Both the position numbers and the translations under genes were made by a program. From the NCBI RefSeq assembly GCF_024494595.1, contig NZ_JANHDI010000004.1, positions 186,001 through 250,000 of the forward strand: DNA of 64,000 nucleotides, in the 5' to 3' direction. Positions within the stretch are counted from its first letter, which is position 1, and every line of letters starts with the position of its first letter. This DNA is from Halobellus rarus (GTDB lineage: Archaea; Halobacteriota; Halobacteria; Halobacteriales; Haloferacaceae). Shown piece after piece: positions 46,272 to 60,023 of the stretch. The notes under the pieces were generated by a model. That model made no database searches. It was not told the DNA's origin and saw only the letters and a list, made by a program, of their open reading frames with translations.

Positions 46272-47027
46272 TCACCTGTTTTCGTTCCGCTCGCTGTCGT
46301 CATTCGGCCGCCGCTCGGTCTCGTCGGGCTCACCTTCCGATTCCGCCAGATCACCGGGCTCGTCGACGTCTCGACGGACACCCGGGTCCGAGACCGACAC
46401 GCAGGCGCTGTCCCCGCTCGTGAGCAGGATCTCGCGACCCCCGACGTCGCCCGCGACGTCCGCGAGCGCGTCGAAGAAGCGCCGGTCGAACAGCACCGGA
46501 TTTCCGCGGACGCCGTCGTGAGCGGCCGCGAGCGCGTCGCCGACGCCCGCGTCGTAGGCGGCGACGAGCGTCTCGACGGTCTCGGGGTCGACGAACGGCA
46601 TATCACCGAGCGCGATTACCGCCGCATCGACCTGTGCATCGGAGTCGCGGAGCGCACCGATCCCGGCCCGGAGCGACGAGGCCTGACCCGTGTCGTAGGC
46701 GTCGTTGGCGACGACCGCCACGTCGAGTCCCGCCAGCGCGTCGACGACGCGGTCGGCCTCGTGGCCCACGACCGCGACGACCGGGTCGAGGCCGGCGTCG
46801 AGGAGCGTGCGCGCCGCGTGTCGGACGAGCGGGTCGCCGTCGTGCGTCGCCAGCAGTTTGTTGCGGTCGCCGAAGCGGTCGCTGGTTCCGGCGGCGAGGA
46901 GCACGCCCGCGACTCGGGAACGGTCCCGCGTCCGATCGTCGTCCTCCTCACTGGATCCCTCCTCATCGGCTCCCTCCTCATCGAACGGCGGCGAGACGAC
47001 CGGCAGATCGACCTCCCCGTCCGTCAT
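46272..47027 (-). CDS. MocA-like molybdenum-cofactor cytidylyltransferase/NTP transferase
   Basis: This 251-residue protein has an acidic, non-conserved first 37 residues, then the nucleotidyltransferase fold: LLAAGTSDRFGDRNKLL, DTGQASSLRAGI and ALGDMPFVDPETV. These are typical of MocA/MobA-like enzymes, with the QASSLRAGI segment typical of MocA, which adds CMP to molybdopterin to give the cofactor form (MCD) used by xanthine-oxidase-family enzymes. That is the cofactor of CO dehydrogenase. It overlaps moeA by 4 bp (ATGA). The acidic C-terminal tail is a haloarchaeal addition. Confidence 0.85.
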   Translation of the reverse strand: MTDGEVDLPVVSPPFDEEGADEEGSSEEDDDRTRDRSRVAGVLLAAGTSDRFGDRNKLLATHDGDPLVRHAARTLLDAGLDPVVAVVGHEADRVVDALAGLDVAVVANDAYDTGQASSLRAGIGALRDSDAQVDAAVIALGDMPFVDPETVETLVAAYDAGVGDALAAAHDGVRGNPVLFDRRFFDALADVAGDVGGREILLTSGDSACVSVSDPGVRRDVDEPGDLAESEGEPDETERRPNDDSERNENR

Positions 47028-48286
47028 CGCTCGACGGCGGAGTACGGGACCACGTCGACCGCCTGGTCGCGCTCGACGCCCTCGCCCGTGAGGACGAAGC
47101 CGTCGGCGCGGGTCGCCCTGGTGCTCGACGAGAGGACGCTCGGGTCGAAGTCCGCCTCGTAGACCGAGAGCGCCGAGTCGGCGTGGCCGAGCGGCATCGC
47201 GACGGCGTCGTCGCCGTCGACATCACCGTCGGTCTCGCCGTCTTCGAGCGTGACGGGAATCGCGTAGGCGAACCCGGGCGTGGCGATACCGACGTCTCGC
47301 GCCATCCGCGCGGGCACCGTCGGCAGCGACGTCTCGCCCGTGAAGAGGGGCCGCGCGACGAGCGTGGTCACCGCGTGCGCGCCCACCGGCTTGCCCGGGA
47401 TGGCGAGGGCGACGGCGTCGTGCTCGGGCAGTTCGGCGACGGCGATCGGCTTGCCGGGGCGGAGTCGCACCCGGTGGAACAGCACCTCGCCGAGGGAGTC
47501 GAGCGCGCGCACCACGTAGTCCTTGTCGCCGACGCTCGTCCCGCCGGTGGTCACCACCACGTCGTGCTCGTCGGCTAAGTCTGCGATCCGGGACTCGACG
47601 CGGTCGTAGTCGTCGGGGACGGTCCCCTCGTAGGCGGCGTCGTGGCCCCACGAGCGGACTAATCCCGCGAGCATCGGTGAGTCGAGATCGGTGTGTCTCC
47701 CCTCGTGGATCTCCGTTCCGGTCGCGAGCAGTCCCACGGAGAGGCGCGTACGGACCCCCACGGACTCGATCCCGAGGTCGCCCAGTAAGATGGCGTCCTT
47801 CGGCGAGAGTCGCTCGCCGACCTCGAACAGCCGCTCTCCCTCGGCGACGTTGCTCCCGCGCTCGTAGACGTACGTCCCCGGTTCCAGGTCCGACCCGGTC
47901 AACCGTCCGTCCTCGACGGTCGCCTCCTCCCGCTTGAGCACCGCGTTCGCCGCGGGCGGGACCGGCGCGCCCGTCGCGATGCGGACGGCCTGCCCCTCCC
48001 CCAGTTCCGGTGGTTCGTCCTCCGGGAAGACGTCGGCGTCGACGACTTCGAGCGGGTACTCCGCCGTCGCGTCGAAGGCGAAGCCGTCCATCGTCGCGTG
48101 GCTCTGCGCCGGGACGTCGACGGGCGAATCGATCGGTTCGGCGAGCGTGCGCCCGGCGATGCGGTCGAGCGGAACCGTCTCGGCGTCCAGCGTCGGAAGC
48201 CACCGCTCTCGCAGGGCCCGAACGCGTTCGGCCCCCTCGTCCCACGCGATCAGATCGTCGTGGCTGTGGTCCGAGTCGTTCGTCAT
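47024..48286 (-). CDS. moeA: Molybdopterin molybdotransferase
   Basis: This 420-residue enzyme inserts molybdate into molybdopterin to make the active cofactor. It contains the MoeA hallmarks: PAQSHATMDGFAF, IATGAPVPPAANAVLKREE, VVTTGGTSVGDKDYVV (the MoCF-binding domain) and LRPGKPIAVAELP, ALAIPGKPVGAHAVTTLVARPL. It is the first gene of moeA-mocA, divergent from the CO dehydrogenase operon. No clear TATA lies within 60 bp; a CAATAAAAG motif (minus strand) near 48428-48440 would give a leader of about 120 nt. Confidence 0.95.
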   Translation of the reverse strand: MTNDSDHSHDDLIAWDEGAERVRALRERWLPTLDAETVPLDRIAGRTLAEPIDSPVDVPAQSHATMDGFAFDATAEYPLEVVDADVFPEDEPPELGEGQAVRIATGAPVPPAANAVLKREEATVEDGRLTGSDLEPGTYVYERGSNVAEGERLFEVGERLSPKDAILLGDLGIESVGVRTRLSVGLLATGTEIHEGRHTDLDSPMLAGLVRSWGHDAAYEGTVPDDYDRVESRIADLADEHDVVVTTGGTSVGDKDYVVRALDSLGEVLFHRVRLRPGKPIAVAELPEHDAVALAIPGKPVGAHAVTTLVARPLFTGETSLPTVPARMARDVGIATPGFAYAIPVTLEDGETDGDVDGDDAVAMPLGHADSALSVYEADFDPSVLSSSTRATRADGFVLTGEGVERDQAVDVVPYSAVER

Positions 48287-48548: not shown

Positions 48549-49145
48549 ATGGAATTTGACGGAGAGTTCGAGTTAGACGGCGTACCGCCCGAGAAAGCGT
48601 GGATCGTTCTGTCGGACCCGATGGCGGTCCGGGACTCGCTGAAGGGGTGTCGCTACATCACCCCGATGGACGACGACTTCAACTTCGACGAGTACGAGCC
48701 CGAGGAGGACGTCGAGATGCTGCCGGACGCGGATCCGGAGATCATCGCCGAGCGGGCCTTCGTCGAGGGGCAGAAGTACGCGGCGCTGATGCAGGTCGGC
48801 GTCGGGAGCGTGAAACCTCGCTTCGAGACGACCGTCACCATCGACGAACGCGACAGCGAGAACTTCAGGATGGTCGCGACCGGCGGCGGCGACGCCTCCG
48901 GGAGCAGTTTCAGCATGGAGTCGGGGATGCAGATCCACGGGCTCGAAGACGGCGAGGGCTCGCGGATCGAGTGGTGGACCGAGGCCGACATCTCGGGGCG
49001 GATCGCCCAGCTCGGCTCGCGGGTCATCAAGCCGGTCGCCAACAAGATCGTGAACAACTTCTTCAGCAGCATCGAGCAGCAGATGACCGACGTCGACGAG
49101 GACGCGAACTCCGGCGTCACCGACAGACTACGGAACATGCTATGA
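48549..49145 (+). CDS. coxG: CoxG-like SRPBCC protein (CO dehydrogenase subunit G)
   Basis: This 198-residue soluble protein has the START/SRPBCC fold: [24 protein letters not shown] (N-terminal strand-helix), [20 protein letters not shown] and [20 protein letters not shown] with the C-terminal helix [19 protein letters not shown]. CoxG proteins accompany carbon monoxide dehydrogenase genes and are thought to bind a hydrophobic ligand such as the quinone used by the enzyme, or to help dock it at the membrane. It is the first gene of the operon and its stop overlaps coxM's start (ATGA). Confidence 0.93.
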
Positions 49146-50029
49146 AAGCGGCACCGTTCGAACACCACGAGCCGACGTCAGTCAGCCAGGCGGTGAGCCT
49201 GATCGAGAGCCTCGACGAGCCGACGATCCTCGCCGGCGGACAGAGCCTGGTTCCGATGCTCCGGTTCCGACTCGCCCGCCCGGACACGGTCGTCGACATC
49301 AACGGCATCGACGAACTCGACTACCTCCGGGAGGAGGACGGCTACCTCAAGATGGGGGCGCTCGCGCGCCACGCCGACGTCGAAGACTCGGACCTGGTCG
49401 ACGAGAAGTACGGGAGCTTCGCGGACGCGGCCCCGCTCGTCGCGGACCCGCAGATCCGGAACCGCGGGACGATCGTCGGGTCGATCGCACAGGCCGACCC
49501 GAAGGGCGACTGGGGGTCGATCCTCATCGCTCACGACGGCGAGATCGTCGCCGCGGGTCCCGACGGGGAGCGGACCGTCCCGATCGACGAGCTGTTCCTC
49601 CTCCCGTACGACACCTCCCTCGGCGAGGACGAACTCATCACGGAGGCGCGCGTCCCGACACCGGAAGAACGGGAGGGAAGCGCCTACCACAAACTGAAGC
49701 GCAAGACCGGCGACTACGCGATGGCCGGCGTCGCGGCCCGACTGATCCTCGACGGAGACGGGAGAATCGAGACGGCGGGAATCGGGATGACCGCGGTGGA
49801 CATCACGAACGCGCGCGCCGCCGACGCCGAGGAACGTCTCGAGGGCGAGCGGCCCAGCGCCGACCTGTTCGAGGCGGCCGGCGAACTGGCGGCCGAACAG
49901 TCGAACCCCGAATCGGACGAACACGGCGACGCGTCGTACAAGGAGCGGATGGTGGAAGTGCTAACCCAGCGGGCGCTCGGCGACGCCGCCGAGCGTGCGG
50001 GGGTCATCAAACGGAGGGCAAAACCGTGA
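49142..50029 (+). CDS. coxM: CO dehydrogenase medium (FAD-binding) subunit
   Basis: This 295-residue flavoprotein carries electrons from the iron-sulphur subunit to the acceptor. FAD-binding segments are [19 protein letters not shown] and [23 protein letters not shown]. The usual second motif in this family is TIGG; here it is TIVGS, a one-residue change at the second glycine. The C-terminal CO dehydrogenase flavoprotein domain follows (about 185-290). It overlaps coxG and coxS by 4 bp each, so translation is coupled. Confidence 0.95.
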
Positions 50030-50742
50030 CTGACGAACGCGAAATCACGCTGACGATCAACGGAACCGAACGCACGCTCGAGGTCGAACCGCGACGCCTG
50101 CTCGTCCACGCGATCCGCGAGGACCTGGATATGACGGGCACGCACATCGGCTGCGACACCGGCAACTGCGGGGCCTGTACGGTCCTGCGGGACGGCGAAC
50201 CGATCAAGTCCTGTCTGATGTTCGCCACGCAGGCCGACGGCAGCGAGATCATGACCGTCGAGGGGATGGAGGACCTCCCCGAGTCCGACGGCGAGCTCCA
50301 CCCGCTCCAGGAGGGGTTCCACGAGGAACACGGCCTGCAGTGTGGGTACTGCACGCCCGGGATGTTGATGGCGGGGAAGGCGCTCCTCGACGAGAATCCC
50401 GATCCCGACGAGGCGGAGATCCGCGAGGCGATCAGCGGCAACCTCTGTCGGTGCACCGGCTATCAGAACATCGTGAAGTCGATCGAGTACGCGGCCGAGG
50501 AACTCGCCGCACAGCCGGCGACCGATGGCGGCACCGCGGCGGTCGAAACCGGATCGTCGGTGGAAGCCGCCGCGAACGGTCCGGAAACGTCCGGTGACGC
50601 GGACGGTCCGACAGCGGCCGACGACGCGGACGATTCCGAACCGTTCGAGGGCTACGACGTCGACGGCGAGTTCTCCTGCGGCGCAGAGAACTGCTGCGGC
50701 GGTCCAACGACCGACGCCGAACACAACGGAGACAACGTATGA
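50026..50742 (+). CDS. coxS: CO dehydrogenase small (2x[2Fe-2S]) subunit with C-terminal extension
   Basis: This 238-residue protein has all eight iron-sulphur cysteines: Cys43, 48, 51, 63 ([10 protein letters not shown]...C) in the plant-type domain and Cys106, 109, 141, 143 (CGYC, CRC) in the second. Family members end near residue 165; here about 70 residues follow, first acidic Ala/Asp/Ser-rich, then [11 protein letters not shown] with three extra cysteines. That tail is unusual and might bind metal or serve assembly. It begins at GTG 50026 overlapping coxM and overlaps coxL by 4 bp. Confidence 0.95.
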
Positions 50743-53243
50743 GCAGCGAAACCGACGACATTCCGGTCGCGGACACGGAGTATCAACACGACGACGACGG
50801 CGGTCCCGACCCCGAGAAGCACTGCGGCCACGGCCGCGGTGGGATGGGCGAGGAGGTCAAGCGCAAGGAGGACAAGCGCTTCATCACCGGTCGCGGCAAC
50901 TACGTCGACGACATCAAGAAGCCCGGGATGCTCCACTGCGAGATCGTCCGGAGCCCGCACGCCCACGCTCGCGTCGAGGACATCGACAAATCGCGTGCCC
51001 TCGATCTCGACGGCGTCGTCGCCGTGCTGACCGCAGAGGACCTGGCGGCGCACGAACTGGCGACGATGCCGACGCTGATGGACGACACCCAGGACGTCCT
51101 CGTCAACGACAAGGTCAAGTTCCAGTCACAGGAGGTCGCCGCGGTGATCGCGACCGACCGGTACGTCGCGAAGGACGGCGCCGAAAAGGTCGAGGTCGAC
51201 TACGAGGTGCTCGATCCCGTCGTCACCGCGGAGGAGGCGCTCGAAGCGGACGCGCCGCTGATCCGCGACGAACTCGAAGACCAGGAGGACAACCACATCT
51301 TCGACTGGGACGTCGGCGACAAGGAAGCGACGGACGAGGTGTTCGAGGAGGCCGACGTGACCGTCGAAGAGCAGATGGAGTACCAGCGGCTCCACCCCGC
51401 GCCGATCGAGACGTGCGGGTGCGTCGCCGACTGGGACCCCGGCAAGGACAAGATCACGGTCCACCTCACCTCGCAGGCACCGCACGCTCACCGCACGCTG
51501 TTCTCGCAGGTGTCGGGCATCCCCGAGCACAAGGTGCGCATCGTCAGCCCCGACGTCGGGGGCGGCTTCGGGAACAAGGTGCCGATCTACCCCGGATACG
51601 TCGTCGCGGCCGCGGCCTCGGTCGTGCTCGAACAGCCCGTGAAGTGGATGGAGGAGCGCTCCGAGAACATTCAGACCACCGGGTTCGCCCGCGACTACGA
51701 TATGACCGGCGAACTCGCCGCCACCGAGGACGGGATTATAAAGGGCGTCCGGACGGACGTGCTGGCGAACCACGGCGCGTACAACGCGGTCGCTCAGCCG
51801 TCGAAGTTCCCGGCGGGCTTCTTCAACATCTTCACCGGCTCCTACGACATCGAGGCGGCGTACGGGTCGCTGACGGCGGCGTTCACCAACACCGCCCCCG
51901 GGGGCGTCGCCTATCGCTGTTCGTTCCGGGTGACGGAGGCCGTCTACCTCATCGAGCGAATGGTGAAGGTGCTCGCCCAGGAACTCGACATGGACCCCGC
52001 GGAGATCCGGCGCAAGAACTTCATCCCCGCCGACGCGTTCCCCTACGAGAGCGCGACGGGGTGGAACTACGACTCCGGGGACTACGAGAAGGCCCTGGAC
52101 AAGGCCCTGGAGATGGCCGACTACGACCACTACCGCGAGGAGCAACGGCGCCGCATCGAGGAGGACGCCGACAAGCTCATCGGCATCGGCATCTCCTCGT
52201 TCACGGAAGTCGTCGGCGCGGGGCCGGGCAAGTCCTGCGACATCGCGGGCATCGAGATGTTCGACTCCGCGGACATCCGGGTGAACCCGACCGGCAACGC
52301 CGTCCTCAGGGTCGGCGTCCAGACGCAGGGGCAGGGTCACGAGACCACGTTCGCACAGATCGTCGCCGAGGAGCTCGGAATGGACGTCGAAAACATCTCC
52401 GTCGAGCACGGCGACACCGACACCGACCCGTACGGGCTGGGCACCTACGGCTCTCGTTCGACGCCCGTCGCGGGGGCGGCCACCGCGGTCGCCGCCCGGA
52501 AGGTCCGCGAGAAGGCCAAATCCATCGCCGCGAACGAGTTGGAGGCCGCCGAGGAGGACATCGAGTGGGACCGCGAGTCCGGCGAGTTCCACGTCGCGGG
52601 CGCGCCCGACCGCTCGATCACGATCACCGAGATCGCCGCGGGTGCGTACATGAACCATCCCACGTCGGAGGAGCCCGGTCTGGAGGCCGTGAACTACTAC
52701 GACCCGCCGGAGATGACGTACCCGTTCGGCTCCTACATCGTCATCGTCGAGGTCGACAGGGAGACCGGCGAGGTCGACTTCGAGAAGTTCGTCGCGGTCG
52801 ACGACTGCGGCAACCGCATCAACCCGATGGTCATCGAGGGGCAGATCCACGGCGGTCTCGCCCAGGGCATCGGGACGGCGATGATGGAGCACGTCACCTA
52901 CGACGAGAACGGCAACTGCACGGGCGGGGACTTCATGAACTACCTGCTGCCGACGGCCAACGAGATCCCCAACTTCGAGACGGGGTACACGGTGACGCCG
53001 TCGCCGCACCACCCGATCGGTGCGAAGGGCGTCGGCGAGTCGCCGACCGTGGGGTCGCCGCCGGCCATCGTCAACGCGGTTGTCGACGCGATGGCCCACG
53101 CCGGCACGACGCACGTCGAGATGCCGATGACGCCCGACCGCGTCTGGGAGGCGCTCGACGAGGCCGGACTGGCGCACGATCCGAGCCAGAACGTGCACTT
53201 CGAGTTCGAGGGCGGACAGAGTGAAGAACCAGCCGACGACTGA
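50739..53243 (+). CDS. coxL: CO dehydrogenase large (catalytic molybdenum-copper) subunit, form I
   Basis: This 834-residue xanthine-oxidase-family subunit oxidises CO with water at a Mo-S-Cu site. The active-site loop is GVAYRCSFR, with Cys394 as the residue that binds copper; AYxCSFR is the form I signature, whereas form II enzymes have AYRGAGR. The essential glutamate is Glu767 in [10 protein letters not shown]. Other cofactor segments are [17 protein letters not shown] and [14 protein letters not shown]. Length is normal. This is strong evidence for aerobic CO oxidation rather than a generic molybdenum hydroxylase. Confidence 0.97.
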
Positions 53244-53298: not shown

Positions 53299-54495
53299 AT
53301 GACAGAGAACGAACCCCACGAAGCGAGCGACGATCCGCCGAACCGAGCGGCCGTCAGCGACGGCGACGTCGCCGCGCTGGAGGCAGAGCTCACGGAGCGT
53401 GGCGAGCCCTACGCCCGGGTGACGATCGTCCGCCGCGAGCCGCCGGTGTCGGCGAACGTCGGCGACCGCGCGGTCGTCACGGCGGACGGCGAACTCCGCG
53501 GCTGGATCGGCGGCGCGGCGTGCGCGCAGACGACCGCCATCAGCGAGGCGAAAGCCGCCATCGAGGACGGAAAGCCGCGGTTCGTCGGCATCGCGCCCGA
53601 TCCCGAGGAGATCGACCGCCCGGGGCTGGAGGCGTTCCCGATGCACTGCCACAGCGAGGGCGTCCTCGAACTGTTCATCGAGCCGGTGAACCCGACGCCG
53701 GACCTGCTGATCGTCGGCGATTCGCCGGTCGCGCGGGCGCTCACGCGACTCGCGGACGAACTCGCCGTCGACGTCGTCCTCGTCGATCCGGACGCCGGCG
53801 ACGATCACGCGGCCGATCGCCTCGTCACGAGTACCGATCCCGAGACCGTCGTCGACGCCGTCGGCCGGTCGCCGCTGGTCGTGGTCGCGTCGATGGGCAA
53901 GTACGACGCCCGAGGCGTCGCCGCCGGCGTCGCGGCCGACGCGTCGTACGTCGGCCTCGTCGCCAGCGAAACCCGGAGCGGCGAGGTGATAGAGCGGGCC
54001 GCGACGCTCCTCGAGACGGACCCCGAGCGGGTCCGAGCGGCCGTGACGAACCCCGCGGGCGTCGACATCGAGGCGTACACGCCCGCCGAAATCGCGGTGA
54101 GCATCCTCGCCGAAGTCGTCGACGCGCGAGCGGCGGGGGCTGCAGGCAGTCCGCAGCAGTCGCCGGCCGACGCGAAAACGTCGTCGCCGGCCGACGGGAA
54201 CGCGGAGACCGAACGCGGGGCAGCTGTCGAAGAGGCGTCGGAAAACGACGCGGCAGAGGATGGGGCATCGGAGGGCGACACAGCTAGGGATGTGGCGTCG
54301 GGGAGGGACGCGGCCGAGGACGAGACTGCGACCGCCGACCTCGCCACCGACCCCGTCTGCGGGATGACGGCCGATCCCGAGACGGCTCCCTCGGTCGACC
54401 ACGACGGGGAGACGTACTACTTCTGCTGTGAGGGCTGTGCGGACTCGTTCCGCGCGGAGCCGGAATCGTACCTGGAACGCGGGGAGGCAGCGTGA
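53299..54495 (+). CDS. XdhC/CoxF-family maturation protein with a fused C-terminal YHS domain
   Basis: This 398-residue protein has an XdhC-type N-terminal half (VITADGELRGWIGGAACAQ-like segment, GWIGGAAC near residue 70) and a Rossmann half (LLIVGDSPVARALTRLAD; SYVGLVASETRSGEVI), the pair used to insert sulphurated molybdenum cofactor. An Ala/Glu/Ser-rich linker (280-350) joins it to a YHS domain: DPVCGMTADPETAPSVDHDG and YYFCCEGCADSF. YHS domains bind copper or other metals. XdhC fused to YHS is unusual and suggests that one protein handles both metals of the Mo-Cu site. It is 55 bp behind coxL and overlaps coxD by 4 bp. Confidence 0.88.
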   Translation: MTENEPHEASDDPPNRAAVSDGDVAALEAELTERGEPYARVTIVRREPPVSANVGDRAVVTADGELRGWIGGAACAQTTAISEAKAAIEDGKPRFVGIAPDPEEIDRPGLEAFPMHCHSEGVLELFIEPVNPTPDLLIVGDSPVARALTRLADELAVDVVLVDPDAGDDHAADRLVTSTDPETVVDAVGRSPLVVVASMGKYDARGVAAGVAADASYVGLVASETRSGEVIERAATLLETDPERVRAAVTNPAGVDIEAYTPAEIAVSILAEVVDARAAGAAGSPQQSPADAKTSSPADGNAETERGAAVEEASENDAAEDGASEGDTARDVASGRDAAEDETATADLATDPVCGMTADPETAPSVDHDGETYYFCCEGCADSFRAEPESYLERGEAA

Positions 54496-55481
54496 GCCGG
54501 AACGCGTTCGCGTCGCTGTCGCCGGCGGACCTCGAAGAGCTATTCGAGGCCGAGGCGTACGTCGCGGACGACCGGACGGTCACGACCGTCCACCTCGCGC
54601 TGACGCTCGGCCGACCGCTGCTCGTCGAGGGGCCGCCGGGGAGCGGGAAGACCGAACTCGGCAAGGTCCTCGCGAGCGCGTTCGACACCGACCTCATCCG
54701 ACTGCAGTGCTACGAGGGGCTGACCGCCGAAAACGCGCTCTACGAGTGGAACTACACGAAGCAGCTGCTCGCGGTGCAGGCCGACGAGGGGACGGTCGCG
54801 GGCGATTCGACGGCCGCCGGGGCGGCGAACCCCGAAAGCGACGGGTCCCCGTCGACCGAGACGGCGCAGAGCCGCTCGGTCTTCGACGAGGAGTACCTGC
54901 TCGAACGACCGCTCCTGCGCGCGCTCACGGCCGGCGGGGACACACCGCCAGTGCTGCTCGTCGACGAGATCGACCGGGCCGACGAGGAGTTCGAGGCCTT
55001 TCTCCTAGAGCTGCTCTCGGACTTTCAGGTGTCGATTCCGGAGTTCGGCACCGTCCGCGCCGACCAGCCGCCGATCGTCGTGCTCACGTCGAACCGCACG
55101 CGGGGGCTGTCGGACGCGCTGAAGCGGCGGTGTCTGTACCTGCACGTCGAACCGCCCGACTTCGAGGACGAGTACGAGATCGTCCGCCGGAAGGTGCCGG
55201 AACTCGACGCCGCCGTCGCCGCCGAGGTGTGCGCCGTCGTCGGCCGCCTCCGCGAGGAGGCGTTCCTCAAGCAGCCGGGCGTCGCCGAGACGCTCGATTG
55301 GGCCCGGGCCGTCGCGCGACTGCGGCACGACGACGAGGAGCGGCCGCTCTCGACGGACGAGATCGAGCGGACGCTCGGGTGTCTGCTCAAGGAGGCAGAG
55401 GACTTCGACCGGATCGACACGGAGCTCCTCGAACAGCTACGAGCGGCCGCCGAACGGGCCGCAGAACGCGTCGAAGCCTGA
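54492..55481 (+). CDS. coxD: CoxD, MoxR-type AAA+ ATPase
   Basis: This 329-residue AAA+ chaperone is needed in bacteria to sulphurate and add copper to the CO dehydrogenase active site. It has Walker A GPPGSGKT (47-54), Walker B VLLVDEIDRADEE, sensor 1 VVLTSNRTRGLSDALKRR, and the MoxR C-terminal lid. The start is GTG 54492, overlapping the previous stop. A MoxR-type ATPase works with a VWA protein, which is the next gene. Confidence 0.94.
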   Translation: MSRNAFASLSPADLEELFEAEAYVADDRTVTTVHLALTLGRPLLVEGPPGSGKTELGKVLASAFDTDLIRLQCYEGLTAENALYEWNYTKQLLAVQADEGTVAGDSTAAGAANPESDGSPSTETAQSRSVFDEEYLLERPLLRALTAGGDTPPVLLVDEIDRADEEFEAFLLELLSDFQVSIPEFGTVRADQPPIVVLTSNRTRGLSDALKRRCLYLHVEPPDFEDEYEIVRRKVPELDAAVAAEVCAVVGRLREEAFLKQPGVAETLDWARAVARLRHDDEERPLSTDEIERTLGCLLKEAEDFDRIDTELLEQLRAAAERAAERVEA

Positions 55482-55487
55482 CCGACG

Positions 55488-56918
55488 ATGAACGCGAACA
55501 CTGGGAACGGTCGGGACGGGATTCGCCGGGGGGATTCGACGGAAACCGACGGCCCGGGTGCTAACCGCGATGATGGCGCGAGTCCCGACGGCGTTCCCGA
55601 CTTCCGGGCGGCGCGGCGACACGTCCTGATCGAACTGCTCAGGTTGGCCACCGAACTCCGGAGCGAGAACGTCACCGTGCCGCCCAGCGACACGCTGGCG
55701 GCCGCGCGAGCGCTCTCGGTCGTCGGTCTCGACGACCGCGACCGCGTCGAAGACGCGTTGCGGGCGACGCTGCTCTCGGATCCGATCGATTCCGACGCCT
55801 TCGAGTCCGCGTTCCCGACGTTCTGGCACCGACTCAGATCCGGACTGAGCGCCGTCGCGACCGACCACGACGGGCCGACGGCCGGTGAGGACGACGCGGG
55901 CGAGCGGGAGGAATCCGCCGACGCCGAGAGGGCGGAATCCGGCCTGTTGGAGGACGCGGAACCACCCGACATCGACGATACCAGGGACGGAGACGGTCGC
56001 GTTGACGTCCGGATCCCGACGGAGCGCCGTCACGCGACGGGAGATCGGCCGGAGTCGGCCGGCGAGAGCGACGCGCGACGATACAGCGCCGTCGGCGGGC
56101 GCGAACGCGTCGACGTCGACACCGCGCAGTTGACTCGGGCGGAGATAGCCGCCATCGACCGCTTCGTCGGCGCGCTGGCGACGGTGCCCGGCCGTCGCCG
56201 GCAGCAGTCGACCGCCGGCGACCAGGTGGAGGCCAGACGCGCGCTGCGGGCGAGTCTGGCGACCGGCGGCGCGCCGATGGAACTGCCGCTCTCGCGACCG
56301 ACGCCGAGCGAACTGCGGTGCTGTCTGCTCGTCGACGTGAGCGGCTCCGTCCTCGACACCGTCGACCGGAGCGTCCTCCTGGCGTTCGCCGACCGGTTGC
56401 ACGACAGCGCTCGCGACGCCGGCGTGTTCTTGTTCGATACGGACCTCGTCGACGTCACCGAGCAGTTCGAGCGAGGCGACGGCGACCCCGCGGCGGCGCT
56501 TCGCGAGGCCGAGGTCGAGTGGGGCGGCGGGACGCAGATCGGCGAGGCGTTCGCGACGCTCCGGCGGGAGCACCCCTACGCGGTCGACCGACGGACGGTC
56601 GTCGTGGTCGTCAGCGACGGCCTCGACGTCGGCGACCCGGACGTGCTGGCCGACGGCGTCACGTGGCTGGCCGACCGCGCCGGTGCGCTCGTCTGGCTCA
56701 ATCCGCTGGCGGTCTCACCGGCGTTCGAACCGCGGTCCCGCGGGATGTCGACGGCCGTCCCGTACGTCGACGCCCTGTTCGGGTTCGCCGATCCCACCGA
56801 CCTCGCGGAGGCGGCCCGGCAGATCGAACAGCGCGGACTTGGCGGCACGGTCGGCTACGAGCACGATTCGCGCCGATTCGGGCGCGCGGCCGACGAGACT
56901 GGCGGTGACCCGTCGTGA
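55488..56918 (+). CDS. coxE: CoxE, VWA-domain protein
   Basis: This 476-residue protein has a helical N-terminal region (35-170), an acidic linker (170-250) and a C-terminal von Willebrand A domain with a full MIDAS motif D283-V-S285-G-S287 (CCLLVDVSGSVLDTVDRS), plus GGGTQIGEAF and VVVVSDGLDVGDP. It is the partner of the CoxD ATPase, as in the MoxR-VWA pairs, and likely delivers the ATPase to CO dehydrogenase. It overlaps the next gene by 4 bp. Confidence 0.92.
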   Translation: MNANTGNGRDGIRRGDSTETDGPGANRDDGASPDGVPDFRAARRHVLIELLRLATELRSENVTVPPSDTLAAARALSVVGLDDRDRVEDALRATLLSDPIDSDAFESAFPTFWHRLRSGLSAVATDHDGPTAGEDDAGEREESADAERAESGLLEDAEPPDIDDTRDGDGRVDVRIPTERRHATGDRPESAGESDARRYSAVGGRERVDVDTAQLTRAEIAAIDRFVGALATVPGRRRQQSTAGDQVEARRALRASLATGGAPMELPLSRPTPSELRCCLLVDVSGSVLDTVDRSVLLAFADRLHDSARDAGVFLFDTDLVDVTEQFERGDGDPAAALREAEVEWGGGTQIGEAFATLRREHPYAVDRRTVVVVVSDGLDVGDPDVLADGVTWLADRAGALVWLNPLAVSPAFEPRSRGMSTAVPYVDALFGFADPTDLAEAARQIEQRGLGGTVGYEHDSRRFGRAADETGGDPS

Positions 56919-57763
56919 GCGACCTCCTCGACGCGGTTCGAGACCGTCTCCGACCGCGCGTCACCGAGGCGACGAGCGTCAAGCGGGTCACCGTCGGCGA
57001 CGCGGCGGTGCTCGTGGAACTGACCGACGGCGAGTCGACGGCGGCCGGCCTGGCACACCGCCCGCCCGGCGACCCACCGGAGACGACCGGCTGGACGGTC
57101 GAGTCGTTGCTGGCCGGCGTGTCCGAAGACGTCGCGGACGGGACGTCGGCAAGCGTCACAGAGGACGGGTCGAAGGACCGGACCGCGCGGGCGCTCGGAA
57201 TCGCGACGATGAACGCGCTGTCGGCACCGATCGTCGACTGGCGGGCGGGCGATCCGATGGCGCTTCTGTCCGACGACGTCGAGCGGATCGTGACCGTCGG
57301 GCTGTTCGCTCCCGCGTTCCGGAAGTTCGACGACGTGACGGTGAACGTGATCGAACGCGAGGAGATCGAGAGCGTCCCCGACCCCGATGGCGTGCGTGTC
57401 GAGGTGTTCACCCCGGACGAGACCGACGCCGCGATGGCCGGCGCGGAGGTGGTCTTCGTGACGGGCTCGGCGTTCGTCTACGGGGGCGTCGAGGCGTATC
57501 TCGACGCGGCACCGACGTCGGCGACGGTGGTCGTGATCGGCGCGACGGCGTCGTTCCTCCCCGACCCGCTGTTCGAGGCGGGCGCGGACGTCGTCGCCGG
57601 GGCGACGGTGACCGACGCCGCGGGGGTCAGAGCGGCGCTGCGGCGGGGTGCCTGCGGGACCGACCTGCACGACGCGGGGCTGCGGAAGGTGTACGTCGCC
57701 CGGGCGACGCCTTCGAGGATTCGACTCGACGCGAGCGACGGGGCCGGGGTTTCTAACGAGTAA
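56915..57763 (+). CDS. DUF364-like putative metal-chelation Rossmann protein in the cox operon
   Basis: This 282-residue protein matches the DUF4213/DUF364 pattern by family features: an N-terminal domain with VKRVTVGDAAVLVELTDG and AGLAHRPPGDPP, then a Rossmann-like half with VTVGLFAPAFRKF, VVFVTGSAFVYGG and VVVIGATASFLPDPLFEAGAD. DUF364 has been described as a putative heavy-metal chelation family with members in metal and nitrogenase or molybdenum loci. It sits between coxE and the second XdhC gene, with a GTGA overlap, so it is very likely cotranscribed. No such gene is part of the usual bacterial cox set; a Cu or Mo handling role is inference. Confidence 0.7.
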   Translation: MSDLLDAVRDRLRPRVTEATSVKRVTVGDAAVLVELTDGESTAAGLAHRPPGDPPETTGWTVESLLAGVSEDVADGTSASVTEDGSKDRTARALGIATMNALSAPIVDWRAGDPMALLSDDVERIVTVGLFAPAFRKFDDVTVNVIEREEIESVPDPDGVRVEVFTPDETDAAMAGAEVVFVTGSAFVYGGVEAYLDAAPTSATVVVIGATASFLPDPLFEAGADVVAGATVTDAAGVRAALRRGACGTDLHDAGLRKVYVARATPSRIRLDASDGAGVSNE

Positions 57764-57770
57764 TCAATTC

Positions 57771-58943
57771 ATGACACAGAGCAACTGGAGCGTTCCCGAG
57801 ACGGAAGTCGTACAGCAGATCCGCGACCGACTGGACGGAGATGGAATCGACGTCCTGGCGACGATCGTCGACGTCGAGGGGAACGCCTACCGCCGACCGG
57901 GGGCGAAGATGCTCCTCGACGAGGGCGGCTCCGGCGTCGGAAGCATCACCGCCGGCTGTCTCGAAGACGAACTGCTCGCCGTCGGCGAACGCGTTCGCGA
58001 GACCGGCGAACCCGAAGTGGTCACGTACGACCTGATGGACGACGACGAGGACGACGTCTGGGGTCTCGGCGTCGGCTGTAACGGCGTGATCGAGGTCCTG
58101 CTCGAACCCCTGACGGAGACGTACCGCCCCGCCGTCGAGGCGTTCTTCGGCGGGCGCGACGTGGCCGTCGTCACCGTCCTGGACGGCGGTGAAACGTTCA
58201 CTCGGGGCGACCGCGCCTACTACTACCCCGATACAGGGTCGCTGGAATTACCGGACGGAGCCGACGCGAGCGGGTGGCCGATCGACTCGCTGGCGGGTCC
58301 CGCCGGCGAACTCGCAGCGCAGGGGAAGGCGGGGACCGTTTCGCTGCGAGACGGAACGGACGAACTGACGGTGTTCATCGACGGACTCGCCGCCCCGAAG
58401 GAACTGGTCGTCTTCGGCACGGGTCACGACGTGCGGCCGGTCACGGAGTTCGCGACGAAGAACGACTTCCGCGTGACCGTCGTGGGCTTCCGGGGCGCGG
58501 TCGACCTCGCCGAGCGCTTCCCCGAGGCGGATCGACTCGTCACCACGTCGCCGGCGGCCGTGGGCGACGACCTCGAACTCGACGACCGGACGTACGCGGT
58601 CGTGATGACGCACAACTTCGTCGACGACCAACTGACGGTCGAGTCGCTGCTGGACGCCGGTGTGCCCTACGTCGGAATAATGGGACCGCGCGAACGCTTC
58701 GACCGGATGCTGGAGGCGTTCGAGGACGACGGACGGGAGTTCGGAGAGGAGGAGCTATCGTCGGTGTACACGCCCGTCGGACTCGACCTCGGCGGCGGAT
58801 CGCCGTTCCAGATCGCACACAGCATCGTCGCGGAGGTGCTGGCGGTCTCGAACGACCGGACGCCGCGGCACCTCAAGAGCCGCGAGGACCCGATTCACGA
58901 GCGCGTCGACGTCGAGTCTGACGCCGACCCGCCGGCGCAGTAG
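57771..58943 (+). CDS. Second XdhC/CoxF-family maturation protein
   Basis: This 390-residue protein has the canonical XdhC architecture: N-terminal domain with RRPGAKMLLDEGGSGVGSIT and AGCLEDELL (the XdhC GSISGGCVE-like loop), WGLGVGCNGVIEVLLEPL, and a C-terminal Rossmann half (LVVFGTGHDVRPVTEFATKN; YVGIMGPRERFDRML; LDLGGGSPFQIAHSIVAEVL). XdhC-type proteins receive molybdenum cofactor from MoeA/MocA enzymes, sulphurate it with a desulphurase and insert it in the target. It has no YHS domain, unlike its paralogue at 53.3 kb, so the two may have different partners. Confidence 0.92.
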   Translation: MTQSNWSVPETEVVQQIRDRLDGDGIDVLATIVDVEGNAYRRPGAKMLLDEGGSGVGSITAGCLEDELLAVGERVRETGEPEVVTYDLMDDDEDDVWGLGVGCNGVIEVLLEPLTETYRPAVEAFFGGRDVAVVTVLDGGETFTRGDRAYYYPDTGSLELPDGADASGWPIDSLAGPAGELAAQGKAGTVSLRDGTDELTVFIDGLAAPKELVVFGTGHDVRPVTEFATKNDFRVTVVGFRGAVDLAERFPEADRLVTTSPAAVGDDLELDDRTYAVVMTHNFVDDQLTVESLLDAGVPYVGIMGPRERFDRMLEAFEDDGREFGEEELSSVYTPVGLDLGGGSPFQIAHSIVAEVLAVSNDRTPRHLKSREDPIHERVDVESDADPPAQ

Positions 58944-59051: not shown

Positions 59052-60023
59052 TTACATATAGCCGAGGTCGCGCAGGCGCTCCATCAGGTCCTCTTTGTCC
59101 TGGGCGCGGCCCGCGCGTTCGGTGGTGTTCGCCATATCCTGCAGCCAGGCGGGTTCCTCGGTCGTCTTGTCCGTCGACACCTCGCTGCCGAGCGAGCGGA
59201 AGCCGGCGAAGTACTTCGGCGAGACCGGGATATCCGCCATCGTCAGCCCGTTCGGCAGGTCGTCGGCGCTCTGGGGGACGTGGCCGTCCTCGGGGTAGCC
59301 CTCGACGGTGTCCGGCACCACGAAGTTCCAGAACGCCTCCCAGACGGAGGCCTCGTCGAACTGGAGGATGGGCTGAATGCGGTCGTGCGGCGGGTAGATG
59401 TCGGGGTCGTGTCGCGGCGAGAAGAACGTCTCGTCGGCGCGAGCCTCCTGCTCGTCCCAGCGCACGCCCGAGATGACGCCGTCGACGTCGTACGTTTCGA
59501 GCGTGTCGTTGAGCGCGACGGTCTTCAGGAGGTGGTTGCCGACGTAGGTGTCGAGCAGGAACGGGAAGGTGTCGTCCTCGTACTCCAGCAGGTCGCGGAC
59601 GTGGTGCTGGTTGTGTTCGGAGAGCTCCGAGACGGGGATGTCGTCGCCGGGTTCGAGGCCGTGTTCCTCGACGTACGCGCCGACGTCCTCGTTGCGGGCG
59701 TAGATGACCTCGAGGTCCCACTGCTCGGCCCAGTGGTCGACGAAGTCGTGGATCTCGTCGAAGTGCTGGAAGTGGTCGATGAAGACCGCCGGCGGGGTCT
59801 CGAGGTCGTACTTCTCGGCGACCTCATTGATGAAGTACAGCGTGAGCGTCGAGTCCTTGCCGCCGGTCCACATCACGGCGGGGTTCTCGTACTGTTCGAG
59901 GCCGCGCCTCGTGACCTCGATCGCCTTCTCGATCTTGTCCTGGATCGTCGGATAGTCCTCGGGGGTCTCGCCCTCGCCGTCGGTGTAGTCGACGTCGAGG
60001 TAGTCGGGAAACTCGTCTGCCAT
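59052..60023 (-). CDS. PAPS reductase/ATP-sulphurylase-like family protein (PP-loop)
   Basis: This 323-residue protein has the PP-loop ATPase motif WTGGKDST near residue 53 (SGGKDS type) and downstream FLLDTYVGNHLLKTVAL and RWDEQEARADETFFSPRHDPD, the segments of the PAPS-reductase/CysH-like superfamily. Activity could be adenylyl-sulphate reduction, sulphur transfer or nucleotidylation; the C-terminal redox cysteines typical of CysH are not seen. The TATA-like box (minus strand GCATTTAGC, 60050-60058) and a perfect palindrome between it and the start codon suggest that it is tightly regulated. It is convergent with the cox operon. Confidence 0.82.
   Translation of the reverse strand: MADEFPDYLDVDYTDGEGETPEDYPTIQDKIEKAIEVTRRGLEQYENPAVMWTGGKDSTLTLYFINEVAEKYDLETPPAVFIDHFQHFDEIHDFVDHWAEQWDLEVIYARNEDVGAYVEEHGLEPGDDIPVSELSEHNQHHVRDLLEYEDDTFPFLLDTYVGNHLLKTVALNDTLETYDVDGVISGVRWDEQEARADETFFSPRHDPDIYPPHDRIQPILQFDEASVWEAFWNFVVPDTVEGYPEDGHVPQSADDLPNGLTMADIPVSPKYFAGFRSLGSEVSTDKTTEEPAWLQDMANTTERAGRAQDKEDLMERLRDLGYM

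Follow-up and report, generated by a model that had tools for sequence, protein, structure and literature searches.

DUF364, a candidate accessory protein of form I carbon monoxide dehydrogenase in Halobacteria

To our knowledge, how the unique Cu-S-Mo site of aerobic CO dehydrogenase (CODH) obtains its copper is known in outline only, mainly from one bacterium. The cox locus of Halobellus rarus, which lies within the 64,000-nucleotide stretch of DNA analysed here (the window), carries a DUF364 gene among its maturation genes, and the question is what this gene does there. The most likely answer is that DUF364 is a form-I-specific haloarchaeal accessory gene that encodes a site-assembly factor. 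Judged from sequence, this is a known orphan family recruited to the cluster of a known enzyme, and DUF364, a family with a structure since 2010, thereby gains a concrete, testable pathway. A literature search, which largely missed subscription journals, turned up nothing that connects DUF364 with CO dehydrogenase or the cox genes.

The cox locus of Halobellus rarus

The locus begins with the MocA-like and MoeA genes on the minus strand, followed on the plus strand by CoxG, CoxM, CoxS, CoxL, XdhC1-YHS, CoxD, CoxE, DUF364 and XdhC2 (Table 1). The position of the DUF364 gene is as originally predicted, and coordinates and Pfam matches agree. Its GTGA start overlaps the TGA of coxE by 4 bases; its stop codon, TAA, occupies 57761-57763 and the ATG of XdhC2 follows 7 bases on, at 57771. 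A genome-wide check showed a single DUF364 copy.

Table 1. Features of the cox locus (window coordinates)
Feature	Position	Strand	Remarks
MocA-like molybdenum cofactor cytidylyltransferase	46272..47027	-	TIGR03310 3.8e-37, under curated cut-off
MoeA-type molybdotransferase	47024..48286	-	divergent from coxG
coxG	48549..49145	+	PF06240 3.7e-18
coxM, FAD subunit	49166..50029	+	FAD_binding_5 6.7e-46; start 49166 is a working choice for searches
coxS, 2Fe-2S subunit	50026..50742	+	Fer2_2 3.2e-32
coxL, form I, motif AYRCSFR	50739..53243	+	TIGR02416 1226 bits, above cut-off
XdhC1, C-terminal Cys-rich YHS domain	53299..54495	+	PF02625, PF13478, PF04945 1.6e-13
coxD, MoxR-type AAA+ ATPase	54492..55481	+	AAA_5; MadB-like 4.3e-83
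coxE, VWA protein	55488..56918	+	PF05762 6.7e-41
DUF364 protein (DUF4213 N-terminal half and DUF364 Rossmann half)	56915..57763	+	282 aa, complete ORF, GTG start
Codons C247-G-T-D-L-H252, clade-specific CGTxLH motif	57653..57670	+	inside DUF364 gene
XdhC2 / CoxI-type protein	57771..58943	+	PF13478 2.3e-30, PF02625 3e-17

The original prediction raised the possibility that DUF364 takes the place of a copper-insertion step. The locus encodes CoxD, CoxE and a pair of XdhC/CoxF-type proteins, of which XdhC1 has a Cys-rich YHS tail, so no known maturation step is missing and the replacement reading is unsupported. That DUF364 stands in for a missing MocA was rejected, since the MocA-like gene adjoins MoeA in this locus.

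Beyond XdhC2, a convergent CysD/PAPS-reductase-like gene (59052-60023, minus strand) is kept in the same place in 7/7 other cox loci of the genus, not elsewhere. This neighbour of XdhC2 is a possible sulfur link.

Association with form I coxL in Halobacteria

We surveyed 391 Halobacteria genomes, in which form I coxL was defined by a score above 1199 bits (41 genomes; all others scored below 770 bits) and DUF364 exceeded its cut-off in 47. The predicted co-occurrence was borne out: DUF364 is present in 39 of the 41 genomes with form I coxL compared with 8 of the 350 without (Fisher p = 3e-43, a value that ignores shared ancestry). The AYRCSFR motif occurs in all 40 form I loci fetched, and the usual order is G-M-S-L-XdhC1-D-E-DUF364-XdhC2. 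The two genes occur together across 15 genera, and within the window's own genus the listed genomes divide into eight with both and five with neither, which argues that the link is not one single event. Halobaculum saliterrae WSA2, which oxidises CO (PMC6548880), is among the carriers. DUF364 adjoins coxE in this genome, whose cluster is split over two contigs with a piece of coxE on each and was counted as linked by inference.

Form II enzymes, the copper-free type, have the coxL motif YRGAGR, without the cysteine seen in form I. In the genomes with form II only, CoxD is found in 42/59 and DUF364 in 2/59. We mapped 24 further loci, 22 of them with the form II coxL motif; CoxD is present in 18 of these 22, most also have CoxE and XdhC2, and several have MoeA. 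Neither DUF364 nor XdhC1-YHS was found in any of the 24, hence in none of the 22 form II loci. The contrast thus narrows the form-I-specific accessory genes of Halobacteria to two, XdhC1-YHS and DUF364. Since DUF364 is kept with form I coxL and is missing from form II clusters that have other maturation genes, it is probably a form-I-specific maturation or maintenance factor. Within that uncertainty, a role on the copper side has slightly less than an even chance; something else altogether is a weaker possibility, and a role on the Mo or cofactor side is weaker again.

Only two of the 41 form I genomes, G127 and G376, lack DUF364. G376 is uninformative: its cox contig stops inside coxD and no coxE was found. 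In G127, a genome 99% complete, the form I cluster reads G-M-S-L-XdhC1-D-E and a convergent CbiZ gene for cobalamin salvage comes next (L084, 14280-15010); a whole-genome search with the clade profile, accepting E values as high as 0.1, revealed no divergent DUF364. Possession of a form I cluster in its absence means that DUF364 may be dispensable. G127 is a natural knock-out for DUF364.

Conversely, eight genomes have DUF364 without form I coxL, six of them without any coxL at the threshold used. Two retain remnants of the cluster: MoeA-CoxD-CoxE-DUF364-XdhC2 in G213 (L098, 4644-10429), which has lost CoxG, M, S, L and XdhC1, and DUF364-XdhC2 in G313 (L100). The form II coxSLM cluster of G213 has no CoxD/CoxE of its own, so the remnant may serve the form II enzyme. 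Two genomes (G001 and G007) carry a distant form of DUF364, and four (G052, G085, G321 and G277) a related copy outside any cox cluster. In a maximum-likelihood tree, whose inner branches are weakly resolved, these four orphans nest in the cox-linked radiation; this suggests that cox genes were lost or that DUF364 may have relocated.

Such orphan copies without CODH are what one would expect if DUF364 were an unrelated gene merely riding with the cluster, and the inheritance of the cluster as a block means that co-occurrence is not independent of linkage. A passenger should, however, be lost frequently, yet only 2/41 form I genomes are without it, and in one of these the cluster runs off its contig. 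Homologues occupy the equivalent cox position in dozens of genomes, and across copies 46-81% identical the core signature is retained. Moreover, in G246 and G160 CoxD, CoxE and XdhC2 have left the form I locus and lie elsewhere with form II genes, and DUF364 still stands beside XdhC1. We consider a passenger very unlikely.

Rearranged cox clusters of the genus g57 (L062 of G160, L063 of G309 and L100 of G313) lack CoxD/CoxE/XdhC2, XdhC2 only, or coxL, and are useful for asking which parts matter.

Bacterial form I clusters and the CoxF counterpart

The usual bacterial cox set had been said not to include DUF364, and this held in seven annotated bacterial form I clusters (Thermomicrobium, Afipia OM5, Deinococcus, Paraburkholderia, Marivivens, Roseivivax and Shinella), none of which lists the gene. 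In Thermomicrobium, Afipia and Deinococcus it is absent from the whole replicon; the plasmid gene tables are incomplete, so Paraburkholderia, Marivivens, Roseivivax and Shinella provide weaker evidence. A tblastn search of the plasmids with the window DUF364 protein was too insensitive to exclude a distant DUF364 in bacterial clusters.

In Afipia (Oligotropha) carboxidovorans, CoxE and CoxF have been implicated in Cu insertion (PMC4240915), and CoxF is an XdhC-family protein. CoxF and DUF364 both follow coxE within form I clusters and possibly act at the same step. DUF364 nevertheless belongs to a different fold family: Pfam detected neither an XdhC_CoxI nor an XdhC_C domain in the protein, and the true CoxF relatives in the locus are XdhC1 and XdhC2. 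Profile comparison revealed no detectable similarity between DUF364 and the XdhC proteins (probability 1.7%) and gave no support for homology of their Rossmann domains. Replacement of CoxF by DUF364 was rejected, given the two XdhC proteins and the missing XdhC domain; DUF364 looks like a haloarchaeal addition instead.

The XdhC-YHS fusion occurs in nearly all haloarchaeal form I clusters. Pfam found the YHS domain in XdhC1 of L060 and L088, where a too-strict regular expression had missed it; L056, L059 and L077 are YHS-negative by that expression only. A YHS domain is also present on Thermomicrobium XdhC and, more weakly, on Deinococcus XdhC, not on Afipia CoxF. XdhC1-YHS is thus common to both domains of life and a more economical CoxF counterpart than DUF364. 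It is a strong copper-handling candidate, and it could perform the copper step alone. We put forward, tentatively, that DUF364 and XdhC1-YHS might form a haloarchaeal module for copper acquisition and insertion, in which Cys247, His252 and His48 of DUF364 would bind Cu(I) or chelated Cu. Such a module, if true, would be an assembly step new relative to the bacterial CoxDEF pathway.

The closest bacterial form I CoxL in our plasmid collection (61% identical) is encoded on a Thermomicrobium roseum plasmid (L105, 8588-13418), where XdhC-YHS follows directly after coxL. This likeness could stem from an exchange of the cluster across domains.

Fold, pocket residues and possible ligand

The window protein matches PF04016 (DUF364; 77 bits, 1.5e-21, cut-off 23) and PF13938 (DUF4213; 28 bits, 2.6e-6, cut-off 23.5). 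Its AlphaFold2 model (pLDDT 90.9, pTM 0.90) shows an enolase-N-like domain followed by a Rossmann-like domain, and a full-length Foldseek search returned both solved DUF364 structures as its top PDB matches, 3npg (PH1506; 2.5e-17) and 3l5o (Dhaf4260; 8.9e-12). With these the window protein has in common the fold, both Pfam halves and the core residues Asn100, Pro133 and Glu147; it differs in the clade-specific Cys247, His252, His48, Tyr189 and Gly191 and in its context, which is a cox cluster rather than a transporter. Dhaf4260 combines enolase-N-like and Rossmann-like domains around a deep pocket, in which the authors of the 2010 structure paper found no functional metal; they proposed a flavin-, pterin- or siderophore-type substrate (PMC2954201). 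The Pfam label 'heavy-metal chelation' is a guess from genome context (PMC2954201).

We compared 47 haloarchaeal with 19 other archaeal DUF364 sequences. Asn100, Pro133 and the invariant Glu147 form a family core common to both sets; the register of Glu147 with Glu148 of Dhaf4260 is seen through 3npg only. Cys247 is present in 45/47 haloarchaeal and 0/19 other sequences, His252 in 47/47 and 4/19, and His48 in 44/47 and 2/19. The Dhaf4260 pocket residues Asn83 and Thr174 are retained as Asn100 and Thr183, while Asp180 and Thr182 have become Tyr189 and Gly191 in the haloarchaeal clade, so the ligand may differ. Taken together, the clade-specific changes suggest an altered ligand.

The deep pocket and the two-domain fold (PMC2954201 and the fold match) would also suit an enzyme or regulator that serves form I CODH in some way other than building the metal site, such as by stabilising it or by acting on a small metabolite or nucleotide. 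The protein evolves fast, with a mean p-distance of 0.42 compared with 0.13 for CoxL, in keeping with such a role. On the other hand, DUF364 sits between the maturation-type CoxE and XdhC2, and elsewhere the family has metal-linked contexts. We regard this possibility as unlikely.

The contexts of relatives bear on the choice of metal. The family has been noted beside genes for molybdate, tungstate, vanadium and iron (PMC2954201). Methanogen DUF364 genes stand last in operons that also encode a QRPTase, a solute-binding protein, a WtpC-like ATPase (2.8e-111) and a Mo-type permease (TIGR01581 1.4e-92). The DUF364 proteins of these operons belong to the same family as the window protein and share its conserved core, but they lack Cys247 and are linked to Mo/W transport genes and QRPTase. 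Other methanogen relatives adjoin FecCD/Peripla_BP_2 transporters, and no copper genes were seen in the relatives' contexts. A role on the Mo side, in which DUF364 would handle molybdate, Mo-pterin or a cofactor intermediate and feed form I CODH with Mo cofactor by preference, without dealing with copper at all, draws on the Mo-type permease and WtpC-like operons as the likely ancestral setting, on the published contexts and pterin-like ligand guess (PMC2954201), and on the MoeA and MocA-like genes in the cox cluster itself. Form II enzymes depend on this Mo cofactor too, yet 57/59 form-II-only genomes are without DUF364, and the changes at the Asp180 and Thr182 equivalents speak for a different ligand. 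We therefore think a Mo-side role rather doubtful. A general haloarchaeal Mo factor is also unlikely, again in view of the 57/59.

The original prediction of a Cu or Mo handling factor thus stands in part: participation in building the metal site agrees with the genetics, and on Cu versus Mo the form I contrast and the relatives' contexts pull in opposite directions. The transporters of the relatives point to Mo or chelates; form I specificity and the clade-only Cys247 and His252 point to Cu.

The explanation that we favour as a whole, with not quite even confidence, is that DUF364 is a dedicated accessory protein for haloarchaeal form I (Mo-Cu) CODH, acting in Cu-S-Mo site assembly. It would act at the step that sets form I apart from form II, when the Cu-S-Mo site is built on the sulfurated Mo cofactor. 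DUF364 would work after CoxD and alongside XdhC1-YHS, the two perhaps assembling or maintaining the site together. The pocket between the two DUF364 domains would hold a small ligand, which could be chelated Cu or Mo or an intermediate of the cofactor, with Cys247, His252 and His48 as candidate ligand residues. Against this explanation stand G127, the DUF364 genomes without coxL, the relatives with Mo/W or FecCD transporters, and the bacterial form I enzymes that have no DUF364.

One orphan DUF364 gene (L095, 8827-13319) is divergent from a gene for a DUF7405 protein and lies with a DUF7350 protein whose match to Fe2+ transport falls below threshold, a hint that this copy handles iron.
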